A DNA stretch of 64,000 nucleotides from Pricia antarctica. GTDB lineage: Bacteria; Bacteroidota; Bacteroidia; Flavobacteriales; Flavobacteriaceae. This document shows, piece after piece, positions 18,744-43,354 of the stretch (position 1 is the stretch's first letter; every line of letters begins with the position of its first letter). The DNA lies in contig NZ_FNAO01000007.1 in assembly GCF_900101815.1 (NCBI RefSeq), forward strand, positions 248,001 through 312,000, read 5' to 3'. The position numbers and the translations under genes were made by a program. The notes under the pieces were generated by a model. The model was given only the letters and a program-made list of their open reading frames with translations. It did not search any database and had not been told where the DNA came from.

Positions 18744-18903
18744 GGGCCTGTTAACACTAAGCCTGAAACCGGCTTTTTCGGCCTATTTTCGTATTTCTTC
18801 GTTGTTTTTTGCCAACGTAGCTCGCTATGTTCGGCAGAAACCGTCTAAAAATCCGAAAAGATCATCAAAAAATCCGTGATTTCCGTTTAGTGTTAACAGG
18901 CCC
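18744..18903. mobile_element. MITE-like 160-bp palindrome, element 1
   Basis: Terminal inverted repeats GGGCCTGTTAACACTAA are perfect (18744-18760 and 18887-18903) and flanked on both sides by TA, as expected for TA target duplication. The interior arms also pair over most of their length around a centre near 18823 (ACGTAGCTCGCTATGT). There is no coding capacity. It lies nine bases after the GapN-like gene. The family of the parent transposase is unknown; TA targeting suggests an IS630/Tc1-like one, by inference only. Confidence 0.75.
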
Positions 18904-18909
18904 TAGTTC

Positions 18910-18974
18910 TTGCCGAGCTTCGGCGAAGTTTATAATGAGCGTATTCGAGATGCTCAGCATAAACTCCGTCGGTA
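18910..18974 (-). repeat. Dispersed intergenic repeat, copy 2 (inverted)
   Basis: Reverse complement of the element at 15418-15476, with the blocks CTTCGGCGAAG, TGAGCGTA and ATGCTCAGCAT in mirrored order. It follows the palindrome at 18744-18903 directly and ends 38 bases before the leuB stop. Confidence 0.72.
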
Positions 18975-19011
18975 GCGGCTACTCTTTTGTCAAAGTAAAT
19001 GTTGATCCTGA

Positions 19012-20067
19012 TTAGATATTTTTCGCCAGCCAGTCCCCAACTTCGCTGGTTCTGTACGATTTTCCGTCTTCGGCCAGGTCTTCGGTGACGATACCTTCCG
19101 CAAGCGATTTGTTCACCACACGGCGAATATCCTCGGCTTCCAGTTTCAGGTCGAAATCCTCAAAAAGCATCGCGGCGGATAGTACGGTGGCCAACGGATT
19201 TGCGATATCTTTCCCGGCAGCTTGCGGATAGGAACCATGGATCGGCTCGTAAAGAGACACTTTGCTTCCTACCGAAGCAGAGGGCATCAAACCCATAGAT
19301 CCCGAAATTACGGAGGCTTCATCTGTCAAAATATCCCCAAAAAGGTTTTCGGTAATAATGACATCATAGCCTTTGGGCCATTGCACCAAGCGCATGGCCG
19401 TGGCATCGACAAATTCATAGGACACTTCGACTTCGGGATACTCCTTCTCCATCGCCTGCACGGTTTCACGCCAAAGTCGGGAAGACTCCAAAACATTGGC
19501 CTTATCGACACAACACAATCTCTTGGACCGTGTCATCGCCATTTCAAATCCCTTTTTCGCCAAACGCTGGATTTCGCCTCGCGTATAGGTCATGGTGTCA
19601 AAGGCCGTATTACCATCGTCTTTGCGACCGCGCTCGCCAAAATATATCCCTCCCGTCAATTCGCGTAGGATAATCAAGTCGGTACCTTCGATACGCTCCC
19701 GCTTTAAAGGGGATTTGTCGATTAGGGATGGAAATGTAAAAGTCGGACGCACATTGGCGAACAATCCCAATTTCTGGCGCATCTTTAGCAAGCCCTGTTC
19801 CGGCCGTACTTTGGCGGAAGGGTCATTGTCGAACCTTGGATGTCCGATAGCTCCGAAAAGCACCGCATCTGCATTTGCACAAATTTCATGGGTTTCATCG
19901 GGGTAGGGTTCACCCACCGCATCGATGGCAGCGGCACCGGTCAAGGCGGGCTTCCATGTAATTTCGTGTTTGTATTTATTGGCGATGGCATCACAAACTT
20001 TTACAGCTTGATCGATTACTTCCGGGCCGATACCGTCTCCGGCGAGTAGGGCAATGTTTAGTTTCAT
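19012..20067 (-). CDS. leuB: 3-isopropylmalate dehydrogenase
   Basis: 351 residues from ATG 20067 (MKLNIALLAGDGIGPEV); a TTG start at 20088 would lie in the upstream palindrome and is unlikely. Motifs: FGAIGHPRFD, RELTGGIYFGERG, VDKANVLESSRLWR, and ITENLFGDILTDEASVISGS with the metal-binding Asp residues, then EPIHGSYPQAAGKDIANP. It oxidises and decarboxylates 3-isopropylmalate with NAD in leucine synthesis. It is the last gene of leuC-D-A-B, separated from leuA by a palindromic repeat. Confidence 0.96.
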   Translation of the reverse strand: MKLNIALLAGDGIGPEVIDQAVKVCDAIANKYKHEITWKPALTGAAAIDAVGEPYPDETHEICANADAVLFGAIGHPRFDNDPSAKVRPEQGLLKMRQKLGLFANVRPTFTFPSLIDKSPLKRERIEGTDLIILRELTGGIYFGERGRKDDGNTAFDTMTYTRGEIQRLAKKGFEMAMTRSKRLCCVDKANVLESSRLWRETVQAMEKEYPEVEVSYEFVDATAMRLVQWPKGYDVIITENLFGDILTDEASVISGSMGLMPSASVGSKVSLYEPIHGSYPQAAGKDIANPLATVLSAAMLFEDFDLKLEAEDIRRVVNKSLAEGIVTEDLAEDGKSYRTSEVGDWLAKNI

Positions 20068-20087
20068 AAGGGTTTTATTAATGTACA

Positions 20088-20223
20088 ATTGCGAGCGTAG
20101 CGCGGCAATCTTTATAACTTTTTCTGTGTTTTATTACGGGCACATCATTTGATTAGTGTTCTCAGCAAATTTCAACGGATTGCCGCGTCGATGATTTTCA
20201 CGGAAAATCATCTCCTCGCAATT
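20088..20223. repeat. Large palindromic repeat, copy 2, in the leuA-leuB spacer
   Basis: ATTGCGAG and CTCGCAAT form the outer arms, CGCGGCAATC (20101-20110) pairs perfectly with GATTGCCGCG (20178-20187), and GATGATTTTC / GAAAATCATC (20190-20212) is a perfect 10-bp stem with a 3-base loop. Same family as 16978-17116. It fills almost the whole spacer, so the leuA-leuB mRNA should carry a strong structure there. Confidence 0.8.
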
Positions 20224-20230
20224 CTTGTTC

Positions 20231-21742
20231 CTAAATAATATTCAACATTTTCTCCGTCGCTTTGATCGCCGAAACGGTCTGGTCAGAATCTAGTCCTCTG
20301 GAAGTAAATTCTCTGCCATCGGTTTCCCAAGTGATGATGGTTTCGCAAAGGGCATCGGAATTACTGCCGGGGGGAATGCGCACGGCATAATCGACAAGAT
20401 TGGGCAGCTTCTTTTTTCTGGACTGATATATTTTCCGCAAGGCATTCATAACAGCGTCGTACTGGCCGTCGCCGGAGGCAATCTCTTCAAAGATTTTTCC
20501 GTCGATTTCCAATGAAAGGGTAGCGGAAGGGCGCAGTCCTTTGGAATGGGTAAGTACATACGATTTCACGAAAACCTTTTGTAGATAATCGGTATTGAGA
20601 ACGTCAGAGATGATATAGGGTAGGTCATCTTTGGTGACCCGCTCTTTTTTATCGCCGAGTTCGATGATACGTGCGGTTACTTTTTTAAGTTCCTCGTCGT
20701 TCAGCGTCAGGCCAAGTTCTTGAAGATTTTTTTGGATGTTGGCTTTTCCCGACATTTTACCTAGCGCATATTTGCGTTTCCGGCCAAAACGTTCGGGCAT
20801 TAAATCGCTAAAATAAAGATTGTTTTTGTTATCCCCATCCGCATGTATTCCAGCGGTTTGGGTGAATACGCTATCACCAACAATAGGTTTGTTGGATGGG
20901 ATGCCGATACCAGAAAACGCGGAGACCAATTTGCTCACTTTGAATAAAGCGGATTCGTTGACGCCAATCTCGACCTCGGGCAGAAAATCGTTGATGACCG
21001 CAATCGCACTGGCCATGGGCGCGTTCCCCGCCCGTTCGCCCATACCGTTAACGGTCAAATGCAGACCGTGGCAACCAGCCTTCACGGCTTCCATAACATT
21101 GGCTACGCCCAGATCATAATCGTTATGCCCATGAAAATCGAAATGGATATCGGGATAACGTTCAATGATTTCAGCAAGAAAGTCATAGGTTTCCGTATGC
21201 GTGAGTATGCCCAGGGTATCGGGAAGTAAAATACGCTTTACGGGCTGGGTGGACAGGAAATCTAAAAATTGAAAAACATAGTCCTTGGAGTTTCGCATGC
21301 CGTTGCTCCAATCCTCTAAATAAATATTATTGTTGAACCCCTTTTTTTCTGCGGATGCGAAAACTTCGGCAATTTCACTGAAATGCTGCTCCGGGCTCTT
21401 TTTGAGCTGGTATTTTAAATGGTTGAGAGAGCCTTTTGTTAAGAGGTTTTGGGTCTTTGCACCCGCTTGCTCCATCCATTTTAAGGACACACCGCCATCG
21501 ACGAAGGTCAAGACTTCGACCTTATCCAAATAGTTTTTGGATGCCGCCCATTGCGTAATCTGTTTTACCGATTCCAGTTCTCCGTCGGAAACCCGCGCGG
21601 AGGCTACTTCGATACGATCTACCTTCAGTTCGTCAAGCAAAAGCTTGGCCAAGGTCAATTTCTCCGAAACGGAAAAGGATACTCCCGAGGTCTGTTCGCC
21701 GTCGCGGAGCGTGGTATCCATGATTTCTATCCTTCTCTTCAT
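20231..21742 (-). CDS. leuA: 2-isopropylmalate synthase family protein (LeuA-like)
   Basis: 503 residues from ATG 21742, one base after the leuD stop codon. The HMGL-like domain starts with IMDTTLRDGEQTSGVSFS; FDFHGHNDYDLGVANVMEA carries the HxH-type metal ligands, and TVNGMGERAGNAP follows. A C-terminal LeuA dimer/allosteric domain (about 360-503) is present. Position in a leuCDAB operon argues for isopropylmalate synthase; citramalate synthase is a close relative that cannot be ruled out by motif reading alone. Confidence 0.9.
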   Translation of the reverse strand: MKRRIEIMDTTLRDGEQTSGVSFSVSEKLTLAKLLLDELKVDRIEVASARVSDGELESVKQITQWAASKNYLDKVEVLTFVDGGVSLKWMEQAGAKTQNLLTKGSLNHLKYQLKKSPEQHFSEIAEVFASAEKKGFNNNIYLEDWSNGMRNSKDYVFQFLDFLSTQPVKRILLPDTLGILTHTETYDFLAEIIERYPDIHFDFHGHNDYDLGVANVMEAVKAGCHGLHLTVNGMGERAGNAPMASAIAVINDFLPEVEIGVNESALFKVSKLVSAFSGIGIPSNKPIVGDSVFTQTAGIHADGDNKNNLYFSDLMPERFGRKRKYALGKMSGKANIQKNLQELGLTLNDEELKKVTARIIELGDKKERVTKDDLPYIISDVLNTDYLQKVFVKSYVLTHSKGLRPSATLSLEIDGKIFEEIASGDGQYDAVMNALRKIYQSRKKKLPNLVDYAVRIPPGSNSDALCETIITWETDGREFTSRGLDSDQTVSAIKATEKMLNII

Positions 21743-21743
21743 C

Positions 21744-22340
21744 TTACAATGGCCTATCTCCAGCAAATTCCCGGATCTGTTCTTTGATATTCAACAGATA
21801 GTCGATATCGTCAAACCCATTGAGCATATTCGCTTTTTTGTAGGCGTTGATGTCAAAACTTTCTTGGTCTTGGGTAGCCTTGATGGAAATGGTCTGCTCA
21901 GGAAGGTTGACCTCTAAAAGCGTATTCGGATCCGCTTCGATGGCCCTGAAAATCTTGTCAAGAAATTCGGGACTCACCTGTACCGGCAGCACGCCGATAT
22001 TCAGGCAATTGTTGCGAAAGATATCCGCAAAAAAGCTGGATACCACACATCGGAATCCGTAGTCATAGACCGCCCAAGCCGCATGTTCGCGAGAAGATCC
22101 GGAACCAAAATTCTTACCGCCGACCAAAATCCGGCCGCTATACATGGGATTGTTCAGTACAAAATCTTTTTTCTCGGAGTGATCGTTATTGTACCGCCAA
22201 TCGCGAAAAAGATTATCGCCGAAGCCCTTCCGCTCCGTTGCCTTCAAAAAGCGTGCGGGTATGATTTGATCCGTGTCCACATTCTCTATCGGAAGCGGTA
22301 CTGCGGATGATGTTAGTATGTTGAATTTATCGTATGCCAT
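21744..22340 (-). CDS. leuD: 3-isopropylmalate dehydratase small subunit
   Basis: 198 residues, usual length. VDTDQIIPARFLK near the start and GKNFGSGSSREHAAWA in the middle are the swivelling-domain signatures. With LeuC it isomerises 2- to 3-isopropylmalate. It is coupled to leuA (one-base gap). Upstream it is separated from leuC by a broken four-helix-bundle gene and GCG-rich short repeats. Confidence 0.96.
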   Translation of the reverse strand: MAYDKFNILTSSAVPLPIENVDTDQIIPARFLKATERKGFGDNLFRDWRYNNDHSEKKDFVLNNPMYSGRILVGGKNFGSGSSREHAAWAVYDYGFRCVVSSFFADIFRNNCLNIGVLPVQVSPEFLDKIFRAIEADPNTLLEVNLPEQTISIKATQDQESFDINAYKKANMLNGFDDIDYLLNIKEQIREFAGDRPL

Positions 22341-22392
22341 TTTTTTGAGCTTTGCGCATCGCGCTTATCGCAATACGCTGATTACTTATTAT

Positions 22393-22740
22393 TTATAATT
22401 TTCGAATTAGGTTATTCAAGCTGCGTTTGACCCTATTGACATCATTTTTTAGCAAAATGAAATCTGGCTCTGCCAAGTATCTCAAATCTTTGGCAAGAAT
22501 AGTAAAATATTCAAGTTCGCTTGCTGACCCCTGTGAAATGATTAAGAAACGCTTGAATTCTGCATCCGAATCTCTTCCGCAACCTTCTGCAATGTTGGAA
22601 GGTATGGAGTACGCCGCCCGACGCATTTGACTTGTAATACCGTATAACTCTTATTTAGGAAATTTCTTAGATAATTTATACATATCAAGGGAAACTTGAT
22701 GATCAAGTTCCCAAACTTTGTATTTTTTGAAATCTCGCAT
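22393..22740 (-). pseudogene. Four-helix-bundle protein (23S rRNA IVP-like) with one in-frame stop
   Basis: From ATG 22740 the frame reads MRDFKKYKVWELDHQVSLDM, then YKLSKKFPK, a TAA at 22651-22653, and continues in the same frame as ELYGITSQMRRAAYSIPSNI with AEGCGRDSDAEFKRFL and ends at 22393. Joined, this is a full 115-residue member of the small four-helix-bundle family first named from 23S rRNA intervening sequences, with the usual order (VWxxxH..., FPKEELYGLTSQMRRA). The stop replaces what is normally Glu, so a single GAA to TAA change would explain it. It sits between leuC and leuD on the operon strand. A 77-residue product could still start at ATG 22626. Confidence 0.8.
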
Positions 22741-22763
22741 GACTTTAATTTTAAGCTTTTTAG

Positions 22764-22797
22764 AGCGTATGGCGTAAAGCGTTTAGCGCTAAGCGGT
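22764..22797. repeat. Degenerate GCG-type short repeats at the leuC stop
   Basis: GAGCGTATGGCGTAAAGCG and following GCGCTAAGCG form a run of near 7-8-base GCG-starting units that overlaps the leuC stop codon (22789-22791). Similar GCG runs occur near 22352-22378 and 43457-43540. Function unknown. Confidence 0.4.
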
Positions 22798-24204
22798 TTC
22801 CGCCTCCATCAGCTCCCGAGGATCTGTCACCTTACCGGTAACCGCAGCCGCAGCCGCAACCAGCGGACTCGCCAAAAGCGTCCGTGACCCAGGTCCTTGT
22901 CTTCCCTCAAAGTTTCGGTTCGAGGTACTGACCGCATATTTGCCGGCGGGCACTTTGTCATCGTTCATGGCCAAGCAGGCGGAGCATCCAGGTTCTCGGA
23001 GTTCAAAACCGGCTTCCTCGAGAATAGCCAACAAACCTTCCTCTTTTATGGCTTTTTCGACTTTATGGGAACCGGGTACCAGCCATGCGGTCACGTTGTC
23101 CGCTTTTTTTCTTCCTTTTACCAACGAGGTAAACAGTCTAAAATCTTCGATACGCCCATTGGTACAGCTTCCGAGGAAAACAAAATCGATAGGTTTTCCC
23201 ATCATGGGATCGCCCTCGCTGAAATTCATATATTTCAAGGACTTGTGATACGTGGCCGCCCCACTATCCTTGGCATCCGCTAGGGGAATACCATGGGAAA
23301 TTCCGATGCCCATCCCCGGGTTGGTACCGTAAGTAATCATCGGTTCGATATTCGCGGCGTCGAAAGTGATTTCTTTGTCAAATTGCGCATCGGCATCCGT
23401 GGAGAGCGTTTTCCAATAGTCCATCGCAGTATCCCAAGCGGCTCCGGTAGGCGTGAATTCCCTTCCTTTTACATATTCGAAGGTTTTTTCATCGGGCGCG
23501 ATCATGCCGCCACGGGCACCCATTTCAATACTGAGGTTACAGACGGTCATACGCCCTTCCATTGTCATATCGCGGAAAACTTGTCCCGCATATTCCACAA
23601 AATAACCGGTGGCTCCGGAAGTGGACAATTGTGAAATGATATACAGGGCGACATCCTTGGAGGTCACCCCGAAATTTAGTTTGCCTTCAACGTTGATACG
23701 CATGCTCTTGGGCTTGGTCTGCATAATACATTGCGTGGCCAGCACCATTTCGACTTCTGAAGTGCCGATGCCAAAGGCAATCGCACCGAAAGCCCCATGG
23801 GTAGAGGTGTGGGAATCACCGCAAACAATGGTGGCCCCAGGTTGCGTAATACCGTATTCCGGCCCTACCACGTGAACGATACCGTTCTTTTCATGGCCAA
23901 GACCCCAATAGGATATTCCAAATTCATTGGAGTTTTCCTCCAACATCCGCAACTGATTGGCCGAAAGCGGATCTTCGACCGGTAGATGTTGATTGATCGT
24001 CGGGGTATTGTGATCGGCGGTGGCAAATGTTTTTTCAGGGTACATGACCTCGATATCCCGGTTCTTAATGCCCAAAAAGGCAACGGGACTGGTCACTTCA
24101 TGCACCATATGGCGGTCGATAAAAAGTACGTCGGGACCGTTTTCGATGTGTTGCACCACATGCGAATCCCATACTTTATCGAACAATGTTTTTTTGTCGT
24201 TCAT
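22789..24204 (-). CDS. leuC: 3-isopropylmalate dehydratase large subunit
   Basis: 471 residues. Aconitase-type signatures: [21 protein letters not shown] and the 4Fe-4S cysteines in [13 protein letters not shown] and [11 protein letters not shown]. First gene of the leucine operon leuC-D-A-B, preceded by a matching -7 promoter box. The last codons (AETA) and stop lie in a GCG-rich short repeat, so the C-terminal residues may vary between strains. Confidence 0.96.
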
Positions 24205-24225
24205 AGTATTTGCTTTCTAAGCATG

Positions 24226-24233
24226 CAAATTTA
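24226..24233 (-). promoter_or_regulatory. -7 promoter box (TAAATTTG) for the leu operon
   Basis: Read on the minus strand, TAAATTTG matches TAnnTTTG perfectly and ends 21 bases before the leuC ATG. No convincing -33 TTG. Confidence 0.5.
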
Positions 24234-24371
24234 ACGAAAGTAAGTCTTTCAGGAAATTATTGGGGATGGAAATTACGACGTTCAAGATACCTGGGTGCTA
24301 CCCAAAACTCCTAAAGCCAAATGTATTTGCTTCCTTTGCCACTAGTGTAAACCGTATGGGTATTGGCCTTT

Positions 24372-26255
24372 TTAAGATATAGATGGCTCAAGGCAGCGAT
24401 AGAACACCCGAAACGGCAATACATTGGCCGACCGCACCCGCAGACTGATCAACAGTTCTTTTTTGAGATGCTCCCAATCCGCTTCCATATAATCGATTTC
24501 GGCATTTTTGGTGATATGGATGTCCGTAGTGGGGGTGTAGCCAACGCCTTGTTCCTGAGAAACCATCACCCCTTTTTCGATGCTTACTTTGGTGATGCTG
24601 CTTTTGTAAATGCTGAAGCAGAGTTGTATGATGTCCTGACGGGTAACGACCCTGCCTTTGGTTAATACATGCTCACGGTAGGCGTAAATTTTATCACTGG
24701 GGGAAGGCTCGTCCCGACCGCCCAAGGTGCCGGTGACCAAGGTGAGCGAATCCGGCTGAAAGGCAGTTCCTGTTTTTGCGTTCAATTTTACATACGGATT
24801 GATTTTATTGGCCTTTTCACCTGCAGTCGTCCAATATTCCGTATAAATATTCTGGTCCCTGTTCTTTTGAATACTGTTCCGTTTAATGATCAAATAGGGA
24901 ATTTTATATTTGTTATAATTACGCTGCTCGATTTTTTGTTCGATACGCGATACTATTTTTTTAAGACTTCTCAGATGGTCATCGATATATTGATCGCCCA
25001 TGGTCGTAAAGGCCACACTATCTTCTTTTAAAAGGTCTAGCGTGTAGTTCAAAAGTTCAGAAGCATCGCGCTCGTCGAATCGAGAAACGCCCCCAAACCG
25101 CAGATACGCATTGGGGTGTTCATGATCTTTAGGTCCCCGGTTCTGCATAAAATAGGTGTTGCCGGTATCGCCGCTAATTTCTTGGATGTCAAAAAAGAAA
25201 TCCCCGTTCACTGCCAAGGGTAGAATATTAAAAAAGGGTTGTAAGCGTTTGTTCACCGATTGTGACTTTTTATTAAGTACCGGAAAACAGTTGATATGAC
25301 ACCGCAGATTTTCGAGCATGGATGTGGAAACCACAGTAGAAAATTCAATTTTTATCCATAAAAGGGGCTCGTCGAATTCCTGCAAATGTGGGTTAGAAAT
25401 AAATTCTGAAAATGCATCCGGATAATTTCTCAGGTTTTTCTTGATTTCCAAAGAATCATCCACGGTATAAAAATGATCTTCGTAAAATTCCTTTACATAA
25501 GTTTCGTAAAATCGGATTTTGCTTTGGATGGATTCGTTGATATAGCCGCTAAAGTCGTCCTTGACCTCCATCTGTTCGTTATAGCCTTTTACCATATCCA
25601 AGGCTTCGCCGTTCAGCGACCAATGGGCCATACCGATATGGTGTGCCAACAGTTCTTTTTGGGAAAAATTAAGGAGGTCGAAATAGCAAAGCAGTTGTTC
25701 GATGCTGTTAACGTCCTCGCCCGGGCGAATGCCCAAATACATACAGTTGGCCTCCGGGTTGGCCTTAAAATCTCCTTTGGCTAAAAAAGGAAGGTTTCTT
25801 TGGTGCTGATGTCTCAATAATTTATCCGGATACGCGATATACCGAAGTTCACAATTATTCAGGGTGAACTCGCCAGCGGGACAGAAAGCGTAATCCTCAA
25901 AAGCATCCTTTCCGTCGTCGGTAAAAATAGGCTTGCGTTTTCGGTGGTAGAACTGACTACGGGCGCTAATTTTTATATGCGATTCCATGGGAAGCGCATG
26001 CATCACCGCATGGGCCGGTTTTGCCGTTACCGAAATTTCCGGAGTCAACAGATCGACCAAGCGTTCCGTTATCTTCGTACGGCTGGTTTTGACCGTATCC
26101 GAAATGCGTTCGAACTCGTGCGCACAGGCATCAAAAAGGATGCCTACGATGGGGTCGAACGAAAACTCGATTTCCATCTCGTCAACGCCCCACACCTCCG
26201 CTGCCCGGCGTATCAATCTGTCTTTTATTTCGTCTTTGGTGAGGCTATCGTTCAT
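24372..26255 (-). CDS. tssF: Type VI secretion baseplate subunit TssF
   Basis: 627 residues. The N-terminal FDPIVGILFDACAHEFERIS and the conserved ERLVDLLTPE with PAHAVMHA are the start of the TssF/VasA (gp6-like) family, and the C-terminus has the VTRQDIIQLC-like segment and IHITKNAEID. With TssE, TssG and TssK it forms the baseplate wedge on which the contractile sheath assembles. It is the last gene of a minus-strand run, 61 bases after tssE. No sheath genes follow; the next gene downstream is leuC. Confidence 0.88.
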   Translation of the reverse strand: MNDSLTKDEIKDRLIRRAAEVWGVDEMEIEFSFDPIVGILFDACAHEFERISDTVKTSRTKITERLVDLLTPEISVTAKPAHAVMHALPMESHIKISARSQFYHRKRKPIFTDDGKDAFEDYAFCPAGEFTLNNCELRYIAYPDKLLRHQHQRNLPFLAKGDFKANPEANCMYLGIRPGEDVNSIEQLLCYFDLLNFSQKELLAHHIGMAHWSLNGEALDMVKGYNEQMEVKDDFSGYINESIQSKIRFYETYVKEFYEDHFYTVDDSLEIKKNLRNYPDAFSEFISNPHLQEFDEPLLWIKIEFSTVVSTSMLENLRCHINCFPVLNKKSQSVNKRLQPFFNILPLAVNGDFFFDIQEISGDTGNTYFMQNRGPKDHEHPNAYLRFGGVSRFDERDASELLNYTLDLLKEDSVAFTTMGDQYIDDHLRSLKKIVSRIEQKIEQRNYNKYKIPYLIIKRNSIQKNRDQNIYTEYWTTAGEKANKINPYVKLNAKTGTAFQPDSLTLVTGTLGGRDEPSPSDKIYAYREHVLTKGRVVTRQDIIQLCFSIYKSSITKVSIEKGVMVSQEQGVGYTPTTDIHITKNAEIDYMEADWEHLKKELLISLRVRSANVLPFRVFYRCLEPSIS

Positions 26256-26316
26256 GGTCGGGGATGTTATGTTTGAGGCAATTCGTTCAGTAGATCGGTA
26301 TAGGTGTGGTCTAGTA

Positions 26317-26748
26317 TTATTTATAGGATAAGGGTGCCAAATAGTAATCCCCTGTAAATCGGAAACTTTCGTCAGTTTTGATGATGATACCGGTTACGCT
26401 AATAAGCAGGTATTTTTTCAACCGTACTTTGTTGGAATTTTCTATTAGACTTTCCTTGAGTTCTATATTTAGCTCAATGTTCGTTAACCGTTTTTCATAG
26501 CGCTCAATTTGATCGGTAAGCGAATATTTGATGTGCTCTTTAAGTACGTTGGCATTTACGAGCAGGTCGAAATCGGTTTCCCAGATGGCACTGCCGAATT
26601 CGTCATCGAACGTATATTCCTCGAAATAGGTGGTGATGATAATGCTGATGAACTGGAATATGGAATCGCGCAAAGACATCTTCACCAGCGGTTTTTTTTC
26701 AAAGAAACGCTTAAAATTGAACGGGGCTTCGTAGTAGGGTTTTGCCAT
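26317..26748 (-). CDS. tssE: Type VI secretion baseplate subunit TssE (gp25-like)
   Basis: 143 residues, the normal size for gp25-family proteins. Recognisable parts are SLRDSIFQFISIIITTYFEE, then FDDEFGSAIWE, which holds the conserved EFG tripeptide of gp25/TssE, and a C-terminal beta-rich part (LLISVTGIIIKTD...FTGDYYLAP). It initiates sheath polymerisation in the baseplate. Preceded on the operon strand by a spacer full of short repeats. Confidence 0.88.
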   Translation of the reverse strand: MAKPYYEAPFNFKRFFEKKPLVKMSLRDSIFQFISIIITTYFEEYTFDDEFGSAIWETDFDLLVNANVLKEHIKYSLTDQIERYEKRLTNIELNIELKESLIENSNKVRLKKYLLISVTGIIIKTDESFRFTGDYYLAPLSYK

Positions 26749-26783
26749 GGGGGTTAAAATTTAAGCGCAAGTTCAAAAAGGGA

Positions 26784-26846
26784 GTTTATGAGTTTATTGG
26801 TTTATGAGTTTAGAAAAGGATTGTTCGGTCATCGGTCATCGGTCAT
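26784..26846. repeat. Octamer GTTTATNN array followed by heptamer CGGTCAT x3
   Basis: GTTTATGA, GTTTATTG, GTTTATGA, GTTTA at 26784-26812, then three perfect CGGTCAT copies at 26826-26846. They lie in the tssH-tssE spacer. The octamer unit is the same as at 8411-8446. Confidence 0.8.
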
Positions 26847-26891
26847 CGCCCATGGTCCAGCATCTAAAATGTAACGTCATATATCTAAAAT

Positions 26892-35003: not shown

Positions 35004-35452
35004 ATCCAGTATTGGGTCCATTGGTTGAACTCATTTCGAGGTATTGACTGGAGCGGGGAATATGGACCTTTGAGATTAGACGAAACCATTCTGTAACAGT
35101 ATAGCGGTGGCTACGATTTTGAAAAATGATGAAATAGGGCCTCCAATTGTGATATTCGGAGGTAAAAGTGAAAGTCAAAATGTGTTCATTTAGGGTGATA
35201 TCTCTGAAATGGTATTACAGTTTTTCTGTAGTAAAAAGTAGGTGAAATGTAAATTTTGTTTTTTAAAAGGGAACACCCTATTAAAATATCGGGGAACGGC
35301 AGCGGGCTATGTCATTCATCGAAAAAAGGGTTCCTATAAAGTAGCTCATCGAAAAAAACCTATTTGTCTTATACCTTTTTATAATTTAACTCTGTCTTTT
35401 ATGACGTTATATAATTCTTAATTAGGCAATTATTGCCACAAAAACCATTTTT
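35004..35452. other. 449-base leader region upstream of hcp
   Basis: No gene. It holds a small hairpin (TACAG/CTGTA, 35216-35230), a 12-base direct repeat TCATCGAAAAAA at about 35316-35327 and 35346-35357, and the palindrome GGCAATTATTGCC at 35425-35437. Its length suits a regulated promoter for the highly expressed tube protein. No perfect TAnnTTTG box was found. Confidence 0.45.
35425..35437. promoter_or_regulatory. Palindrome GGCAATTATTGCC upstream of hcp
   Basis: A perfect 6+1+6 palindrome 15 bases before the hcp start. It could be an operator or an mRNA hairpin masking the ribosome site. Function inferred. Confidence 0.3.
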
Positions 35453-35842
35453 ATGTCTTTTAAAGCCAAATTGAATTTAGGAGGAAAAGAGTACAAAGTG
35501 CTGCATTGCTCCTACGATCTGAACCAAGAAGTAGATCCTACAGGAAGACCATCTTCTGTAACTAGAGGCGGTAGGGTAGCCCTTACTGTGGAGTCTACCG
35601 GTGACACCGCTCTCTTTGAATTGATGACCGATAATTTCGGTAAAAAAGACGGTAGCATTATATTTACTAAAAGAGATACTGACGCAACCTTGAAAGAACT
35701 TAAGTTGACCGAGGCCTATATGGTCAAATATAAAGAGCATTTTGACTCGACAGGTCAAAATCCTTTAACGGAGTCCTTTACACTTTCTGCCAAAGAAATC
35801 TCTTGTGGTGGAGGTCAGCACAAAAACGATTGGGTAATCTGA
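35453..35842 (+). CDS. tssD: Type VI secretion tube protein TssD (Hcp), Bacteroidota form
   Basis: 129 residues, the standard size. MSFKAKLNLGGKEYKVLHCS, then the following QEVDPTGRPSSVTRGGRVAL, and SFTLSAKEISCGG near the end are characteristic of the Bacteroidota Hcp family. It forms the hexameric rings of the inner tube and is the usual secretion hallmark. It lies opposite in orientation to the baseplate genes, with its own long leader and a strong terminator, consistent with separate high expression. Confidence 0.93.
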   Translation: MSFKAKLNLGGKEYKVLHCSYDLNQEVDPTGRPSSVTRGGRVALTVESTGDTALFELMTDNFGKKDGSIIFTKRDTDATLKELKLTEAYMVKYKEHFDSTGQNPLTESFTLSAKEISCGGGQHKNDWVI

Positions 35843-35863
35843 TTTATTCGTTACTATAATTTG

Positions 35864-35902
35864 AAAAGGACCGATTTGAAAAAGTCCGTCCTTTTTAATT
35901 TT
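35864..35902 (+). terminator. Terminator after hcp
   Basis: AAAAGGAC pairs with GTCCTTTT and is followed by a T-rich tail (TTTTTAATTTTTT). Confidence 0.65.
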
Positions 35903-35922
35903 TTATTCAGAAATTTTCATTA

Positions 35923-36080
35923 AAGTCTTTAGACTTTTTCTTTTAACTGCCATATTCCCATTTTTCAACCTAATTTCGTCTTTTTTCAGTTCCGTAGCTA
36001 AGGCTATGCAACTGAAAAATGACATCATTAGGGCAAAAAAGCCGAATATCTCGGTTCCAAACATAAAGTCTAATGGACTT
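35923..36080. repeat. MITE-like 158-bp palindrome, element 2, ending at the fumC stop
   Basis: The two halves pair imperfectly over nearly the full length. Ends are AAGTCTTTAGACTTT and the complement of AAGTCCATTAGACTTT, and near the centre TTTTTCAGTT (35982-35991) pairs perfectly with AACTGAAAAA (36010-36019). The core is CCGTAGCTAAGGCTATGC. The right end meets the first base of the fumC stop codon (36080-36082). No coding capacity. Confidence 0.7.
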
Positions 36081-37477
36081 CATTTTAGACTTCCTACCAT
36101 TTCCTCTGGCTTCACCCATTCATCATATTCTTCGGCGGTAACATAGCCAAGGTTGATGGCTTCCTCCTTTAATGTCGTACCATTCTTATGTGCTGTATTG
36201 GCTATTTCCGCAGCTTTGTAATACCCGATTTTGGTATTCAGCGCGGTAACGAGCATCAGGGAATTGTTCAGCATTTGTTCGATAACCTTATAATTAGGTT
36301 CGATTCCTTCAGCACAATTTTCCTCAAAACTGACACAGGCATCACCTATCAACTGGGCGGATTGCAGCATATTGGCCGCCATCAAGGGCTTAAATACATT
36401 AAGCTCGTACTGCCCTTGGGTACCGCCTACAGATATGGCAACATCATTGCCCATCACCTGTGCACAGACCATGGTTAAGGCTTCGCATTGGGTAGGGTTC
36501 ACTTTACCGGGCATGATGGAACTGCCCGGTTCATTGGCGGGTATGTTTATCTCCCCGATTCCCGATCGCGGTCCGGATGCCAACATTCGTATATCGTTGG
36601 CAATTTTGTTCAACGAAACTGCCAGTTGTTTCAAGGCTCCGTGACTTTCGACAATAGCGTCATGGGCTGCCAAGGCCTCGAATTTATTATCGGCAGTTCG
36701 AAAGGGGAGTTCTGTAAAATCTGAAATGTACTTCGCTACGAGCACGTCGTAACCGGCAGGTGTATTAAGTCCCGTTCCGACGGCCGTTCCGCCCAACGCC
36801 AATTCACTTAGATGGTCTAATGTGTTTTTCAAGGCTTTTAGGCCGTGATCGAGCTGGGAGACGTAGCCTGAAAATTCCTGTCCCAATGTCAAGGGCGTAG
36901 CATCCATCAAATGGGTACGCCCGATTTTCACCACCTTGGCAAAGTCTTTTGATTTTTTACGGAGTGTATCCCGTAACTGTTCCACACCGGGGATGGTGGT
37001 TTCTACGATTTTTTTATAGGCCGCGATGTGCATTCCCGTTGGAAAGGTGTCGTTGGAGGATTGGGATTTATTCACATCGTCGTTGGGCTGAATGGTCTTT
37101 TCACCTGCCCCGATTATTTTTCCTGCCATCTCGTGTGCGCGGTTGGCAATGACCTCATTGACGTTCATATTGCTTTGCGTACCCGAACCCGTCTGCCAGA
37201 TGACCAAAGGAAATTGGTCGTCGTGTTTGCCCTGGACTATTTCGTCACAGACCTGGGCGATCATATCTCTTTTTTCTTCGGATAATACCTCCAATTCGCA
37301 GTTGGCATAGGCGGCGGCCTTTTTGAGATAGGCGAAGCCGTAGACAATATCCAACGGCATGGAAGCCGCAGGGCCTATCTTGAAATTGTTTCGGGAGCGT
37401 TCGGTCTGTGCGCCCCAATATTTATCGGCGGGTACCTGTACCTCGCCCATGGTGTCTTTTTCAATTCTATATTCCAT
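36080..37477 (-). CDS. fumC: Class II fumarate hydratase
   Basis: 465 residues from ATG 37477 ([20 protein letters not shown]); the frame extends 31 codons further up but that part does not match the family, and a purine-rich GGGGAG precedes the chosen ATG. Motifs: [35 protein letters not shown] and the signature [13 protein letters not shown] with the catalytic Ser. It interconverts fumarate and malate in the TCA cycle. It marks the core-genome flank of the type VI locus. Confidence 0.97.
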
Positions 37478-37651
37478 CTCCCCTGTATTTTGGTTTCTAA
37501 CAAAGATAGGGGTTGGCCCGTTTATTTTCAATAGGTCGTTCACTGAATTCAACATATTTTGGATTTCCAACCCCTAACTTCATAATTTTTTAATTTCCAT
37601 TTGCAATTCTACCCGTTTTACAAGTATCTTTGTGGAAGCAAATAGAAATGT

Positions 37652-37828
37652 ATGTTCGAATTCGACCAATATTTAGGGTTTTTAGCTTTTTTGACTATTT
37701 TGACCATCGGCTTTTGGCTTATGATTTTTTTACTGATGTTCGTCGTACCGTATTGGTTGGGCGGAAATCTTTTGGAACGTTATAAAGAATGGAAAGCGGA
37801 GAAAAGGGCCAAACGCGAGGCATTGTAA
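37652..37828 (+). CDS. Small single-pass membrane protein, 58 residues
   Basis: Reads MFEFDQYLGFLAFLTILTIG, then a second hydrophobic stretch containing FWLMIFLLMFVVPYW, and a charged tail ERYKEWKAEKRAKREAL. One long or two short membrane segments with a positive cytoplasmic tail. A strong terminator 16 bases after the stop supports it as a real transcription unit. Function unknown; such short proteins often associate with larger membrane complexes. Confidence 0.7.
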   Translation: MFEFDQYLGFLAFLTILTIGFWLMIFLLMFVVPYWLGGNLLERYKEWKAEKRAKREAL

Positions 37829-37844
37829 TTCGAAATGAACTGTT

Positions 37845-37886
37845 AAAAAAGCCGGGGAAGTCAATTTTGACTTCCCCGGCTTTTTT
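37845..37886. terminator. Strong bidirectional terminator
   Basis: AAAAAAGCCGGGGAAGTCAA pairs perfectly with TTGACTTCCCCGGCTTTTTT, flanked by A and T runs. It serves the 58-residue gene on plus and the outer-membrane receptor on minus. Confidence 0.93.
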
Positions 37887-37954
37887 AATGATATTAGTTA
37901 TCGTAGGGTTGCAATATATTGCAATTCCTACTGTGTGGGTTTCCTCCATCGCAA

Positions 37955-40516
37955 TTATCCCTCAAATTCCCCATCGCCCTCACCGCCACCGTCTCCACCA
38001 CCACGGCCGTTTTCACGTTTCTTGGCCTGGTTGAAACGATAGGTGAACGTGAAGGTAAATGATCGTTGCCGCCATTGGAACTCGCTGCGGGAGGTAAAGA
38101 AATCCGTTTGGGTCACCGACCTGCGTTTGAAGGAGTTCAAAAGGTCGTTCACGTTCATCGACATTGTGCCATTGTCGTTCAAGATATCTTTGCTAAAGGC
38201 GAGATTGATGCCGAAAAGTCCTTCGGTCTCAGTTTGGGCGGTCGATCGAGGGCCCCTGTAAAAGGCATTGGTCTGCCATTCCACTTTCGCCGGTAAGGAA
38301 ACTTTAGAGCTAAAGCGGGCGAACCAGCTTGAATTGTCGGTTCCGTAGTCTACGCCATTAAAGACACCTTCTGAAGCGAACTTAAAAATATTGAAACTGC
38401 CGTTCAGCCGCAACCATTTGGTAGGGTTGTACATCAGGCCGGCTTCGGCGCCATAGCGGTTTTCGGTGGCCAGGTTTATCGGTATGGACCGAATTATTTG
38501 TATACTGTCAGTTGTAACTTGCCCCGTCGGTTCCTGAACCCTTTCAAAGGCGTTCGTTTCCCTTTGGTAATAGATGGATGAGGTCAAGGTCAGTTTGTCC
38601 CATCTTTTTAGATATCCGAGATCAAAAGCGTTGGAAAACGCGGGGTCTAAATCGGGATTTCCTTGAAAAATATTCGTTCGGCTCGATCGGGAAGGGAAGG
38701 GGTTGATGTACCAACCTCCAGGCCGGTTGATACGGCGGTTGTAGCCCAACGAAATATTTTCCCTGCCTTCTTCGTCGAACTCGTAAATTAAGTTGAGCGT
38801 TGGAAAAAGGCCCAAATATTTTTTATCGAAATTCGCTTGGATATCCACGCCCAGACTTTCTTCGAAATCATTATTGTCGAATGCCGAATTCAATTGGCCT
38901 TTCAATTGGGTATGTTCCAGACGCAATCCGAGAAGAAAGGAAAACGGTCCGAATTTGTTTCCGTATTGGGTATAGAGGGCGTTTACATTTTCGTCGTAGG
39001 TAAATTTGTTGGTCAAATTTTGGTTCTGTACGAATTGCCCGCTGGCTTGATCCAACGAATCCAAACGGTAATCGGTAATGTCTTGCTCAAAATTGCCGCG
39101 ATAGCCTGCTTCAAACTGGGCATCTCCCATCGGTAGCACATAATCGGCCTGGATCAGATATTCGTTCTGCTTTTCGTTTTCGAACACATCTTCAAGCACT
39201 ATGAGGTTATCGTCGGGCAAGGTTGTGCGTTCCTCAATGGTTGAGTTTTTGATTTCGTCGTCTTTGGAGTATTGAAAATCCGCTGTTAGCTTCTGCCCAT
39301 CTTCATCGAGCTTGTTGACGTAGTTCAGTGAAATCTGATAGCTATCTTGGTCTTGGTTTTCCCCTTCTTCGCGAAAGGTTCTGCTATTCAATTGATCTGC
39401 AATAAACCGTCGGTTGGTGTTTTCGGTCAGATCTTCGTCTTTTGAGGTCCGATAAAAAATACTACCGGTAAGCGAGGAGTTGTCGGTAAGGAAATATTCG
39501 GCGCCTAGGTTGGTGTTAAAGCCTTTATCACGCCTGTTGTAGATTCTGTCTTCAATAACCCGATCGAATCTCCCGGAACTATATGTATTGTCAAAAAACG
39601 CATTGCCCGGTGCGTCGCGGTACCGATAGCTGGTCGTATTAAAAATATTGAACTTATCGGTTCGCAGGTTCACATTGGCGGTAATACCGCTGCTGGACGG
39701 GTACCCAATATTGGCACTGACCGAACCGTTGAAGCCCAATGTTTTTTCTTTTTTTAGGATGATGTTCAAGATACCAGCGGTTCCCTCGGCATCGTATCGG
39801 GCCGAAGGACTGGTAATGACTTCTACCTTTTCGATGGCATCGGCGGGCAGCTGTTTCAAAGCTTCGGTTGAGCCAAAACCGGCCATGGCGGATGGTTTTC
39901 CATTAATCAAGATGCGTACGTTTTCATTGCCTCGAAGGCTAATGGCACCTTCTACATCGACGTTCACGGAGGGAACATTGTTAAGTGCATCGCTAATGGT
40001 AGCCCCGCTTGTCGTCAAATCTTTACCGATATTATAGATTTTTTTATCGAGCCGTACTTCGACCGTCGTCTTTTCACCGACGACCTCGACCCCTGCAAGT
40101 TCAGAAGCAGCTATACTTAAAGAAATCGTGCCTAAATCGATAGACTCCTTAAAGCTTTTTTGGGGTACCTTGTAGGTCTTATAGCCGATATATTCAATGC
40201 TGGCGTTGTATTCACCAGGTGCAGTTTCCACTTCGAACCTCCCATTGCCATCGGTTATACCGCCGTTGACCTTACCAGGGTTCGCAATACTCTGCAAAAC
40301 CAAGGTGGCATACTCTAAAATTTGTCCGGTTTCTTTGTCAATGACCGTTCCGCTGATTTTAATCGATTTCTCTTCAATGTCCGGTGTACTTTGGGCAGTA
40401 TTGGTTTGAGTGTCCGATGGTTTTTGAGGAGTATTTGTTCTATCGTCCGGCGGACTTTGGGCAAAAACTGTAAATGAAATAAATAGTGATAGGAATAGTG
40501 GGAAACATTTTTTCAT
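37955..40516 (-). CDS. TonB-dependent-receptor-like outer-membrane beta-barrel protein
   Basis: 853 residues. Signal peptide (MKKCFPLFLSLFISFTVFAQ), a low-complexity DDRTNTPQKPSDTQTNT linker, a carboxypeptidase-regulatory-like domain (about 50-135, ISGTVIDKETGQILEYATL), a plug domain (about 165-255, ISDALNNVPSVNVDVEGAIS, INGKPSAM) and a beta-barrel of the Outer membrane protein beta-barrel 3 type. The C-terminus is a Gly-rich, acidic tail (GGGDGGGEGDGEFEG) after the usual barrel end, which is unusual. Substrate unknown. It follows the gene for a small exported protein by eight bases, so the two are cotranscribed. Confidence 0.88.
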   Translation of the reverse strand: MKKCFPLFLSLFISFTVFAQSPPDDRTNTPQKPSDTQTNTAQSTPDIEEKSIKISGTVIDKETGQILEYATLVLQSIANPGKVNGGITDGNGRFEVETAPGEYNASIEYIGYKTYKVPQKSFKESIDLGTISLSIAASELAGVEVVGEKTTVEVRLDKKIYNIGKDLTTSGATISDALNNVPSVNVDVEGAISLRGNENVRILINGKPSAMAGFGSTEALKQLPADAIEKVEVITSPSARYDAEGTAGILNIILKKEKTLGFNGSVSANIGYPSSSGITANVNLRTDKFNIFNTTSYRYRDAPGNAFFDNTYSSGRFDRVIEDRIYNRRDKGFNTNLGAEYFLTDNSSLTGSIFYRTSKDEDLTENTNRRFIADQLNSRTFREEGENQDQDSYQISLNYVNKLDEDGQKLTADFQYSKDDEIKNSTIEERTTLPDDNLIVLEDVFENEKQNEYLIQADYVLPMGDAQFEAGYRGNFEQDITDYRLDSLDQASGQFVQNQNLTNKFTYDENVNALYTQYGNKFGPFSFLLGLRLEHTQLKGQLNSAFDNNDFEESLGVDIQANFDKKYLGLFPTLNLIYEFDEEGRENISLGYNRRINRPGGWYINPFPSRSSRTNIFQGNPDLDPAFSNAFDLGYLKRWDKLTLTSSIYYQRETNAFERVQEPTGQVTTDSIQIIRSIPINLATENRYGAEAGLMYNPTKWLRLNGSFNIFKFASEGVFNGVDYGTDNSSWFARFSSKVSLPAKVEWQTNAFYRGPRSTAQTETEGLFGINLAFSKDILNDNGTMSMNVNDLLNSFKRRSVTQTDFFTSRSEFQWRQRSFTFTFTYRFNQAKKRENGRGGGDGGGEGDGEFEG

Positions 40517-40524
40517 AGCAATGA

Positions 40525-41049
40525 TTACGATTTATCTTTCTTTTTCTTTTTACGCTTTTTTTCCTTTTTCTTTTCTTTTTTGGTCTTTTGAATGCCTTTT
40601 TCCTGCATCTCTACAAAGGCATCGTACTTTTCAATAGGCAGGCCGGCCTTTAATTCCTCATCTTGAGCCTTGGTGATTTTCTCCATACCCTCCCGCATTT
40701 GCTCGGGCGAAAGTTCAAGAATCTGCATTTCGATACGTTTCTGTAAATACTTTTTTAGCGTGGAGCTCAATACCGCTTCTTCGAATGGATTCAGTTCCAG
40801 GGCTTCGGAGATGCCCGGCATTTCACCATCTACGATTTGCTCTGCCGTTTTAGGCTCTGGCTCTTTTGGGGTTTCTTGAACTTGGGGGATAGCACTACGC
40901 TGTCTGCCATACCCATAGCCGCTGCCATAGCCTCCGCCGCCATATCCATAACCGCCGCCACCGTATCCGCGGCCGTATTGGGCCTGTAGTTCTCCGCCAG
41001 TGAACAATAAAATAAAAAGAATAATAAGGTGTGTGACTTTGATTTTCAT
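40525..41049 (-). CDS. Small exported Gly/Tyr-rich protein with Lys-rich tail
   Basis: 174 residues. Signal peptide (MKIKVTHLIILFILLFTGGE...LQAQ), a Gly/Tyr repeat region (about 24-50, YGGGGYGYGGGG), a central helical domain (about 72-150) and a C-terminal tail almost entirely of Lys and Glu (KKEKKKEKKRKKKKKDKS). It is the first gene of a pair with the beta-barrel protein. Not recognised as any named family; the extreme tail and the partner suggest an envelope location and perhaps binding to an acidic surface, which is inference. Confidence 0.75.
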   Translation of the reverse strand: MKIKVTHLIILFILLFTGGELQAQYGRGYGGGGYGYGGGGYGSGYGYGRQRSAIPQVQETPKEPEPKTAEQIVDGEMPGISEALELNPFEEAVLSSTLKKYLQKRIEMQILELSPEQMREGMEKITKAQDEELKAGLPIEKYDAFVEMQEKGIQKTKKEKKKEKKRKKKKKDKS

Positions 41050-41128
41050 GAGTAACGTTTTAGTGTGATAGTGAATTTAGAGGAAGGTTTAATGGATGTT
41101 GGTTAAAGGTTTGTTAAAAGGATGGGGC

Positions 41129-42227
41129 CTATTCCTCCTCCTGGCCCATCATCATCAAAAAGGCTTTTAGGAAGGCATCGATATCCCCGTCCATTACCGC
41201 ATCTACGTTTCCGGTTTCGTGGGAAGTGCGTACATCCTTTACCAATTTATAGGGATGCATCACGTAGTTCCGGATCTGGGAACCCCATTCGATTTTCATT
41301 TTTGAGGATTCGATTTCCTCACGTGCCTCCATCTTTTTTCGTAGCTCGATCTCGTACAATTGCGATTTCAGCATCTTCATAGCTGTCGCGCGGTTATCGT
41401 GCTGGCTTCGGGAGTCGGAACAGGAAATCTGGATGCCGGTCGGATGGTGCGTTAATTGCACCTTGGTTTCCACTTTGTTTACGTTCTGCCCCCCTGCACC
41501 GCTCGACCTTGCCGTGGTAATCGTATAATCCGCGGGATTGATATCGATTTCAATGCTATCATCCACTAACGGATAGACATACACGGAAACAAAGGAAGTA
41601 TGCCGTTTGGCATTGCTGTCGAAAGGGGAGATACGCACTAAACGATGCACCCCGTTTTCCCCTTTTAACCAGCCGAAGCCATAATCGCCATCGATTTCCA
41701 GGGTTACGGTCTTGATACCCGCCACGTCTCCTTCCTGATAGTTGAGTTCTTTGACTTTATAGCCGTTCTTTTCCGCCCACATCATATACATACGCATGAG
41801 CATCGACGCCCAATCACAGCTTTCCGTGCCTCCGGCACCCGCTGTAATCTGCAAAACGGCAGACAATTCGTCACCTTCTTCTGAAAGCATGTTCTTGAAT
41901 TCCAGCTTTTCGATTTGTTTCAGGGCCTTTTCATACTGGCCTTCGACTTCCTCTTCCTTGATTTCGCCTTCCTCCTGAAATTCGAGCAGTACTTCGAGAT
42001 CGCCCACAGCGGCGTCGGCTCTATTATAATCATCGACCCATTGTTTCTTGGACTGAATGAATTTCATGTGTGCCTGCGCTTCTTGGGGATTGTCCCAAAA
42101 ATCGGGAGCGAGCGTTTTCTCTTGCTCGTTCTCTATTTCGATACGTTTCGCATCGACGTCAAAGATACCGTCTTAGCGAACCAAGGCGGTCCTGTAGACC
42201 TTTGAACAGGTCTGTTGTGATTGTCAT
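41129..42227 (-). CDS. prfB: Peptide chain release factor 2, with programmed +1 frameshift
   Basis: 365 residues after frameshift. Translation starts at ATG 42227 ([20 protein letters not shown], then YL), meets an in-frame TGA at 42161-42159 as codon 23 within the slippery CTTTGAC, and continues in the +1 frame as [20 protein letters not shown]. The main part has the hydrolysis motif [12 protein letters not shown] (GGQ) and the RF2 anticodon-like SPF motif in [13 protein letters not shown]2 ends translation at UGA/UAA and regulates its own level through this shift. A -7 promoter box lies just upstream. Confidence 0.97.
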
Positions 42228-42244
42228 ATTCTTCTAATTTTGGG

Positions 42245-42252
42245 CAAAAGTA
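42245..42252 (-). promoter_or_regulatory. -7 promoter box (TACTTTTG) for prfB
   Basis: On the minus strand TACTTTTG fits TAnnTTTG exactly and ends 17 bases before the prfB ATG. Confidence 0.5.
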
Positions 42253-42321
42253 CGCTTTAGACTTGAGATTTTAGCACCTCGACTGCGCTCGTTGCGTCAA
42301 ATTTTGGATCGGAATTTTTCT

Positions 42322-43176
42322 TTACTGTTGCTGACTGGAAACTTGCACGGTATGGCTAGTCTCATTACGTCCGGTAGTGTAGACGACGCCTTTGAGCGGA
42401 GAACAATCGGTGTAGTCCTTGCCGTGGGCAATCTTGATGTGGTTAGTATTGGCCAGCAGGTTATTGGTGGGGTCGAAGCCGATCCATCCTATTTTTGGAA
42501 TATAAGCTTCCGCCCAGGCGTGCATTTGTGAATCACCGAACAAACTGTTGCCTTGGTGTAGGTATCCGGATACATATCTAGTAGGAATTCCGTTTTGACG
42601 GGCCAAAGCGCAGAACAGATGGGTAAAATCTTGGCAGACCCCGTGCCGATTTTCGATAACTTCGTCTAGAACGGTATTGACATCGGTTACATCGGTCTTA
42701 AAATAAATATGGGTATACGTCCATTCATTCAGGGCCTGTAGGTTTTCAAATAGAGATATGTTTTTGTCTAAGAGGAAAGCATCCCTGTTTTTTTCCGGAA
42801 GGGTAGTAAAACGGGTATTTCTCAAAAAAGCCTCAAAATCTACCTTAAAATTCAGTTCTTCAATGTGGGCATAGGCTTGGGATATATCTTCCTCCTCTAT
42901 AAAATCAAACGGATTCACCTCCCTTTTGATCAGCTTAAAATGGGCTTCGAACGAAATCTGTTTGAACTTTTTCTTGGGATGCACCCGGATGGTTCGAAAC
43001 CCATATCCGTTGACGGAAAATTGATTGATGGTATTGAGCGAGTTGTTGAACTGAACATCAATAAATTCCTGATTGTCATTTTTTTGAGGAATGATCAAAA
43101 ACTGCCAATGGGCGTCGTTTACCCAGTTTTCATAGGTGTTTTCTGCGGTATAGGTAATGGAATATTCTAGGGACAT
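42322..43176 (-). CDS. Transglutaminase-like protease family protein (bacterial TGL with alpha-E / ATP-grasp partners)
   Basis: 284 residues. An N-terminal beta domain (1-130) precedes a transglutaminase core with the triad Cys in NRHGVCQDFTHLFCALA, His in MHAWAEAYIPKIGW and Asp in GFDPTNN. This is the arrangement of the transglutaminase-like proteins that co-occur with alpha-E and circularly permuted ATP-grasp proteins; both follow upstream on the same strand here. It was proposed (Iyer and co-workers) that such sets make and cut a peptide-like tag or metabolite. The activity of this protein is unproven. It is separated from the alpha-E gene by a 374-base repeat-rich spacer. Confidence 0.88.
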   Translation of the reverse strand: MSLEYSITYTAENTYENWVNDAHWQFLIIPQKNDNQEFIDVQFNNSLNTINQFSVNGYGFRTIRVHPKKKFKQISFEAHFKLIKREVNPFDFIEEEDISQAYAHIEELNFKVDFEAFLRNTRFTTLPEKNRDAFLLDKNISLFENLQALNEWTYTHIYFKTDVTDVNTVLDEVIENRHGVCQDFTHLFCALARQNGIPTRYVSGYLHQGNSLFGDSQMHAWAEAYIPKIGWIGFDPTNNLLANTNHIKIAHGKDYTDCSPLKGVVYTTGRNETSHTVQVSSQQQ

Positions 43177-43192
43177 GTTTATCTGATAGCTA

Positions 43193-43354
43193 AGAGACTG
43201 TTATGAATTATATCGATTATTTTTTTTATGTCCCTTTTTGCGACCTTTGTCGTTAAATTTTATACCGTAGCTACGGTTATGTTAGATAATCTTGCCTAAA
43301 ACGCCACAAAAATAACCTGTAAAAATTCTAATCACATAATTCAAAACAGTCTCT
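43193..43354. mobile_element. MITE-like 162-bp palindrome, element 3
   Basis: Ends AGAGACTGTTATGAATTA (left) and the complement of AGAGACTGTTTTGAATTA (right) pair with one mismatch over about 18 bases and continue less perfectly inward. The centre has a perfect 14-base palindrome ACCGTAGCTACGGT (43264-43277). No coding capacity. A target duplication is not clear (TAA left, TGA right of the GAGAC core). Confidence 0.72.

Follow-up and report, generated by a model that had tools for sequence, protein, structure and literature searches.

Palindromic elements of about 160 bp with a common core and changing ends in Pricia antarctica and other Bacteroidota

The window analysed here is a whole stretch of 64,000 nucleotides of the Pricia antarctica genome (contig NZ_FNAO01000007.1, positions 248,001 to 312,000). 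A first-pass annotation had reported three palindromes of about 160 bp in it, with like centres and different ends, and had offered two readings, a family of miniature inverted-repeat transposable elements (MITEs) or a selected hairpin with a conserved loop. All three palindromes are present, with flank-bounded sizes of 158, 160 and 160 bp. The likeness of the centres was borne out as a common core, CGTAGC-(2-4 nt)-GCTATG, and at least three unrelated end classes, with different target duplications, can be distinguished. The evidence supports both readings at once: probably, the elements form a MITE superfamily that is moved in trans by different transposases, with a hairpin that is under selection as a folded strand during spread. 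The MITE reading is supported by near-constant length, terminal inverted repeats (TIRs), target duplications, identical copies and, for one class, the ends of an IS5-family insertion sequence (IS). The selected hairpin is supported by paired substitutions and by a strand bias that is missing from private mutations. The elements of the window, including a decayed fourth copy, are as follows (strand is the one that reads CATAGC..GCTACG):

E1: 18745-18902, minus strand; CTAG class, 158 bp, ends GGCCTGTTAACACTAA, flanks TTAG/CTAG, core at 18816-18829.
E2: 35922-36081, minus strand; GAA class, group A-like, 160 bp, core at 35993-36008.
E3: 43194-43353, minus strand; group B, GAGACTG ends, 160 bp, flanks TAA/TGA, core at 43266-43281.
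E4: 35027-35187, plus strand; GAA class, group A, 161 bp, decayed fourth copy, flanks GTT/ATT.

In a de novo palindrome scan of the window, the gapped arm score was 65 for E1, 62 for E2 and 55 for E3, and the 18 other listed centres all stayed at or below 30; E4 was absent from that list. E4 was found by BLAST, with 80% identity to the query copy, and its core (35100-35115) carries one mismatch. E2 is bounded by a target duplication (ATT/ATT, 35919-35921 and 36082-36084). The stop codon (36080-36082) of a lyase/fumarase-like open reading frame (ORF; 36080-37570, minus strand) overlaps both the end of E2 and the target duplication, hence E2 was inserted at the very end of this gene. E4 and E2, which lie in opposite orientations, flank a TssD/Hcp-like gene (35453-35842, PF17642) in a possible composite arrangement.

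The core proved to be in excess inside palindromes, so the first refuting check named in the first-pass annotation did not overturn its reading. Arm scores of at least 40 were obtained for 82 of the 99 distinct core-centred stretches and for 20 of 4193 random centres, which is the control to use for this comparison. Among the 17 core-centred stretches below 40, five are chance matches (L111, L120, L130, L143, L151), L185 is perhaps a sixth, and the rest, judged by eye, seem to be copies that are decayed or asymmetric. The loose pattern CGTAGC-N(1-8)-GYTATG is not enriched in the P. antarctica genome (26 places versus 25 for the reversed control); by eye, 20 of these 26 places are centres of palindromes of about 160 bp. 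A stricter core gave 17 matches versus 4 for the control in this genome, 27 versus 1 in G003, 18 versus 0 in G025, 6 versus 0 in G009 and 9 versus 3 in G002. No match was found in 28 of 40 genomes, and several of the other 12 were at control level. BLAST with a single copy revealed 40 group A places (GAACTC ends) in the P. antarctica genome. When E3 was the query, four group B places (GAGACTG ends) were matched over their full length and one in part, and some matches covered the ends only. Additional copies show TGTTRNGTTAA-like ends that are preceded by CTAG or TTAG. A coding role of the core was rejected: ORFs cross it in different frames, and the TTAG loop (11 of 130) is a stop in the frame that had looked coding.

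The elements are short (<300 bp), occur in multiple copies, carry TIRs and hold no transposase gene, as is usual for MITEs. Length was 157-164 bp in 82 of the 87 measured elements, with a mode of 160 (GAA and TAC classes) or 158 (CTAG class); the other five measured 144-148 bp, their ends apparently being mis-set. End classes were assigned by regular expression, and further end types exist beyond GAA, TAC and CTAG. In the GAA class, 25 of 44 elements have identical 3-bp flanks, compared with a shuffled mean of 3.8 (maximum 11). The flanks are identical in 24 of 35 TAC-class elements (TTA 15, TAA 8, TGA 1; shuffled mean 12.3, maximum 20). Within the single-contig genome G158, which holds GAA, CTAG and GAG types together, two copies are identical at 163 of 163 positions in different surroundings and a third at 161 of 163. 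Such identity at two sites of one genome implies mobility. The version at L276 is 211 bp long, one of its arms having about 50 additional bases.

The first-pass annotation had proposed a search for full-length transposons with the same ends. One with matching ends was found for the GAA class; the CTAG class yielded only a weak candidate and the TAC class none. The GAA-class partner came from a search with PF13586, which matched in two of eight genomes. In G003, a genome of the same genus as the window, an IS5-family IS of 927 bp carries an intact ORF of 277 amino acids (NF033580, 127.6 bits, cut-off 110). It has the ends GAAGTGATTTAAACTT and GAAGTGATTTAAAATT and the flanks ACT/ACT. These ends match the GAA-class palindrome ends at 16/16 and 15/16 positions; in a control with 3000 16-mers, the 99% level was 11 and the maximum 14. 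The PF13586 search also revealed a six-copy IS in G002, the ends of which are unrelated. For the TAC class PF13359 was tried, and its match in one of 14 genomes (gene at L295) had no fitting ends around it. Inspection by eye for IS-length pairs of ends found none among the matches listed for GAACTC-type ends in 31 genomes, and none for GAASTTG ends in four genomes.

Relatives reach far beyond Flavobacteriaceae, the family in which the first-pass annotation had proposed to search. A GTDB scan with CCGTAGCTNNGGCTATGCA gave at least 115 stretches. Among the 80 matches listed, 75 were titled Bacteroidota, one was a Chlorobiota metagenome-assembled genome and four were chance matches in other phyla; hosts listed include Flavobacteriia, Saprospiraceae, Bacteroidales, Cyclobacteriaceae and Sphingobacteriaceae. 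The covariance model R1 (see below) matched in the P. antarctica genome and in 4 of 197 other Bacteroidota genomes, and three of the five positive genomes have 16-19 matches each; strict filters and the scoring of 19 candidates per genome make these counts lower bounds. Such patchy, multi-copy occurrence is typical of mobile elements. Plasmids gave no match for two queries. In IMG/VR, 2 stretches were found with the core, none with TAC ends, none with GAACTC ends and 27 with GAASTTG ends, which is no more than chance by our own estimate for an assumed collection size. When palindromes were sampled without bias, no core element turned up in 400 kb from each of the genomes G000, G040 and G009, although about four were expected in G000; this sampling therefore yields no estimate. 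No recurrent neighbour gene was seen in 110 loci, the largest cluster covering 8 of them.

Palindromic, intergenic sequences with a GTAG string in the core recall repetitive extragenic palindromic (REP) sequences and bacterial interspersed mosaic elements moved by a Y1 transposase (REP-associated tyrosine transposase, RAYT), and the P. antarctica genome does contain one Y1 gene. However, G002 (9 core matches) and G025 (18) have no Y1 match, G010 and G013 have Y1 matches but no core matches, and TIRs and target duplications do not fit. With Y1 genes unlinked to element number in 40 genomes, this origin was rejected as very improbable.

The hairpin was studied on 59 representatives. From 157 core stretches, 130 passed an arm score of 30 and gave 59 clusters; 27 stretches are therefore absent from the strand counts. 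In the clustering step, the null was obtained by pairing the arms of elements that are related, which inflates it. Pairing between the arms is repeatedly weak at certain fixed offsets from the core (1, 5, 16-18, 26-27 and 33-38). On the complement of CGTAGC..GCTATG, the consensus comprises a UAGC/GCUA stem with a CNNA loop, an A.C mismatch, a C-G pair, a G.G mismatch and three pairs, followed further out by an A/U helix, an internal loop with many purines on this strand and an outer helix. For R1, 40 of the 59 representatives were chosen by hand and aligned by the tool; the model has 13 pairs. The second check proposed earlier, for an excess of paired substitutions, did not refute the first-pass reading either: two-sided changes occur in 9 of the 13 consensus pairs. 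At columns 41-72, for example, AU is found 22 times and UA 17 times, with one pair broken among 40. Caution applies to C at -1/+1 and A at +2, which belonged to one search key, and arm-to-arm copying could also yield paired changes. In the window, R1 scored 82.6 bits on the minus strand of E2 (26.7 on the plus strand) and 57.3 bits on the minus strand of E3; matches were weak on E1 (18768-18878, minus strand, 22.7 bits, E 0.26) and E4 (plus strand, 22.1 bits, E 0.33). RNA of the plus strand, with ends trimmed, was matched in stability by 3 of 200 shuffles for E1 and by none of 200 for E2. An Rfam cmscan of the window (E<=5) gave three matches, none of them on E1-E4. A perfect 22-bp inverted repeat at 37843-37888, which looks like a terminator, overlaps a sub-threshold Rfam match to sau-5971 (40.6 bits, cut-off 90).

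The two strands of the hairpin are not equivalent. Arm mismatches on the core strand, with the core excluded, are A-C in 305 and G-T in 115 cases (p 6e-21), with 52 elements biased towards A-C and 4 towards G-T. Thus, mismatches on the complementary strand are mostly G-U, and this strand folds better. A-C exceeds G-T at 54 of 71 unequal offsets; the bias is located at offsets 16-66, and offsets 56-66 hold 60 A-C and 4 G-T. By class, the ratio of A-C to G-T is 102:27 for TAC, 70:27 for GAA and 133:61 for other elements. RNA energy is better on the complementary strand in 56 of 59 representatives (mean -60.8 versus -47.6 kcal/mol), and the same holds for 29 of 30 group A copies. E3 (minus -47.1, plus -34.8) and E4 (plus -34.6, minus -26.7) follow this trend. 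In G158, G217, G108 and G197, the favoured strand folds better in 20 of 21 listed elements, three of them nearly identical (L445 was excluded, its core showing no orientation); this preference is not independent, since the elements were found with R1. Eight of the 59 representatives carry a loose promoter-like pattern on the favoured strand, and none does on the other strand. By eye, GC skew showed no pattern with strand at 17 G158 loci. Private group A mutations are unbiased (18 G-T versus 17 A-C), hence a mutational strand bias is unlikely.

A host function of resident copies was considered next to selection during spread. According to this alternative, the elements are regulatory or terminator hairpins with effects on neighbouring mRNAs like those of the enterobacterial repetitive intergenic consensus (ERIC) or of Correia elements. 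They are indeed stable and intergenic: overlap with predicted ORFs is at most 60 bp in 109 of 118 elements, E1 lies directly after a stop codon, and E2 overlaps one. Known MITEs are reported to affect mRNA (PMC10969869, PMC2649163). However, orientation to genes is unbiased (61 versus 49, p 0.29), and occurrence is patchy, as described above. Moreover, core conservation in resident group A copies is 0.90 compared with 0.89 for the rest (rank 41 of 146 windows). As the resident core is no better kept than the rest, conservation acts between families; on this ground and on that of the unbiased orientation, we place selection at mobilisation and not in the host. We regard the host-regulatory explanation as improbable.

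The same data bear on a simpler account, in which the elements are ordinary MITEs of several IS families descended from one ancestral palindrome, with core, length and strand asymmetry as functionless relics. It agrees with the MITE hallmarks, with the lack of extra constraint on the resident core and with group A mutations that look neutral. It does not readily explain why classes with ends that could not be aligned still have core and length in common, why two-sided pair changes are frequent, or why the A-C/G-T bias appears in each class, also in outer stretches (offsets 56-66) judged non-homologous between classes. This account is unlikely, although less so than host regulation. We therefore prefer a MITE superfamily with a selected hairpin. 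Under this preferred scheme, the GAA class would be mobilised in trans by the IS5-family transposase with the same ends, as the end matches suggest for this one class, and other end classes presumably use other transposases. The internal stretch of about 110 nt would form a conserved imperfect hairpin with an apical UAGC-CNNA-GCUA, A.C and G.G mismatches and covarying helices. The folded strand under selection would be the complement of CGTAGC..GCTATG, more likely as RNA than as single-stranded DNA (ssDNA), and selection would act at the mobilisation step rather than in resident copies. A function of the hairpin as a folded strand is what we infer from these patterns. A more far-reaching idea, which is possible but doubtful, is that the RNA or ssDNA hairpin is a portable cis module: unrelated transposases would carry one 160-nt element, with ends exchanged and hairpin, strand and length kept. 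Hairpin-templated repair could then copy one-sided end changes onto the second arm, which would account for the arms matching each other best.

Several results weigh against the preferred scheme. Regarding transposases, the CTAG-class candidate is an IS4-like DUF4372 transposase gene with CTAG flanks; its reading frame is split, and its ends match at 10/16 and 9/16 positions (control 99% level 10, maximum 11). No TAC-class partner was found with the few transposase families tried. CTAG-class flanks are identical in 3 of 8 elements, compared with 3.0 after shuffling, the target being near-constant. Regarding the core, most loci were found by searching for it, and part of its invariance therefore stems from the search. 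Of 12 elements found by TIR alone among 30 fetched loci, nine have a perfect core and three none; the latter, with the same ends and length, all come from one genome. Loci chosen by the core yielded 109 de novo palindromes, of which 28 lack it; some of these 28 have end types like those of the present elements, and others are clearly hairpins of another sort. The core is thus common, not obligatory. As to folding, the 59 clusters are not fully independent, and the bias is absent at offsets 1-15 (33 G-T, 35 A-C) and reversed at 67-80 (37 G-T, 25 A-C). Within the core, the favoured strand shows A.C at the place where the other strand has G.U. Within group A the bias is weak (shared changes 14 G-T versus 17 A-C, consensus 0 versus 2); with shared changes unbiased as well, the bias is a property between families. 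DNA parameters favour that strand too (57/59), and folding energies thus do not discriminate between RNA and ssDNA. Strict promoter patterns were seldom seen on either strand (0-1 and 1-2 of 59). In the window, E1 folds slightly better on the plus strand (-59.2 versus -54.3), the strands of E2 are equal in RNA energy (-53.8 and -53.6), and the plus-strand RNA of E3 was matched in stability by 124 of 200 shuffles.

Variants and unrelated palindromes were also noted. L269, L285 and L289 (G043) are 163-164 bp long; they have GAAGTTGTCTAAAG-type ends but lack a recognisable core. L126, L167, L149 near 2483 and L167 near 3598 show AACCCAAAATGATC-type ends with cores CATAGCGGTGCTATG or CATAGCGGTACTATG, and TAC-like ends with altered cores. 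L390, L391 and L392 (G040) and L176 hold a different repeated imperfect palindrome (..GGCTAGCTGAGAGCTTTGCTCTTAGATCCGCCAGCC..) without the core.

MITEs are usually viewed as passive leftovers of IS elements. Here, a non-coding mobile element of Bacteroidota keeps a structured core, nearly one length and a preferred folding strand throughout the phylum while its ends change class. A possible dependence of bacterial DNA transposons on folded RNA or ssDNA thereby becomes open to testing. In addition, core, length and covariance model provide a handle for annotating a repeat for which no name was found.

The literature searched holds no description of these elements, most subscription papers lying outside its reach. 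Like REP sequences, they are extragenic palindromes, but they have no link to a Y1 transposase. ERIC sequences are 127 bp long with a conserved centre. They share with the present elements a whole-length imperfect palindrome, the conserved centre and the intergenic position; compared by size and host, the present elements differ in their 160 bp, their occurrence in Bacteroidota, their several end classes and the IS5 partner of one class. Correia elements (PMC2649163), compared in architecture only, likewise combine inverted repeats with a conserved core, mobility and an RNA hairpin; several end classes at near-constant length set the present elements apart. MITECca01 of Cardinium (PMC9769881) is also a MITE of a Bacteroidota genome with a parental IS; it is about 240 bp long, derives from one IS982 element and was reported from one strain. 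Prokaryotic MITEs in general are described in a review (PMC10969869) as short, non-coding, multi-copy and intergenic, with terminal repeats, target duplications and IS-derived ends, and stable stem-loop transcripts are mentioned. The present elements differ in that one hairpin and one length are common to classes with different ends, in that one strand is favoured for folding, and in their occurrence across much of a phylum. A MITE superfamily is a known kind of element; what is new here are the changing end classes, the near-constant length and the conserved, strand-preferred hairpin.

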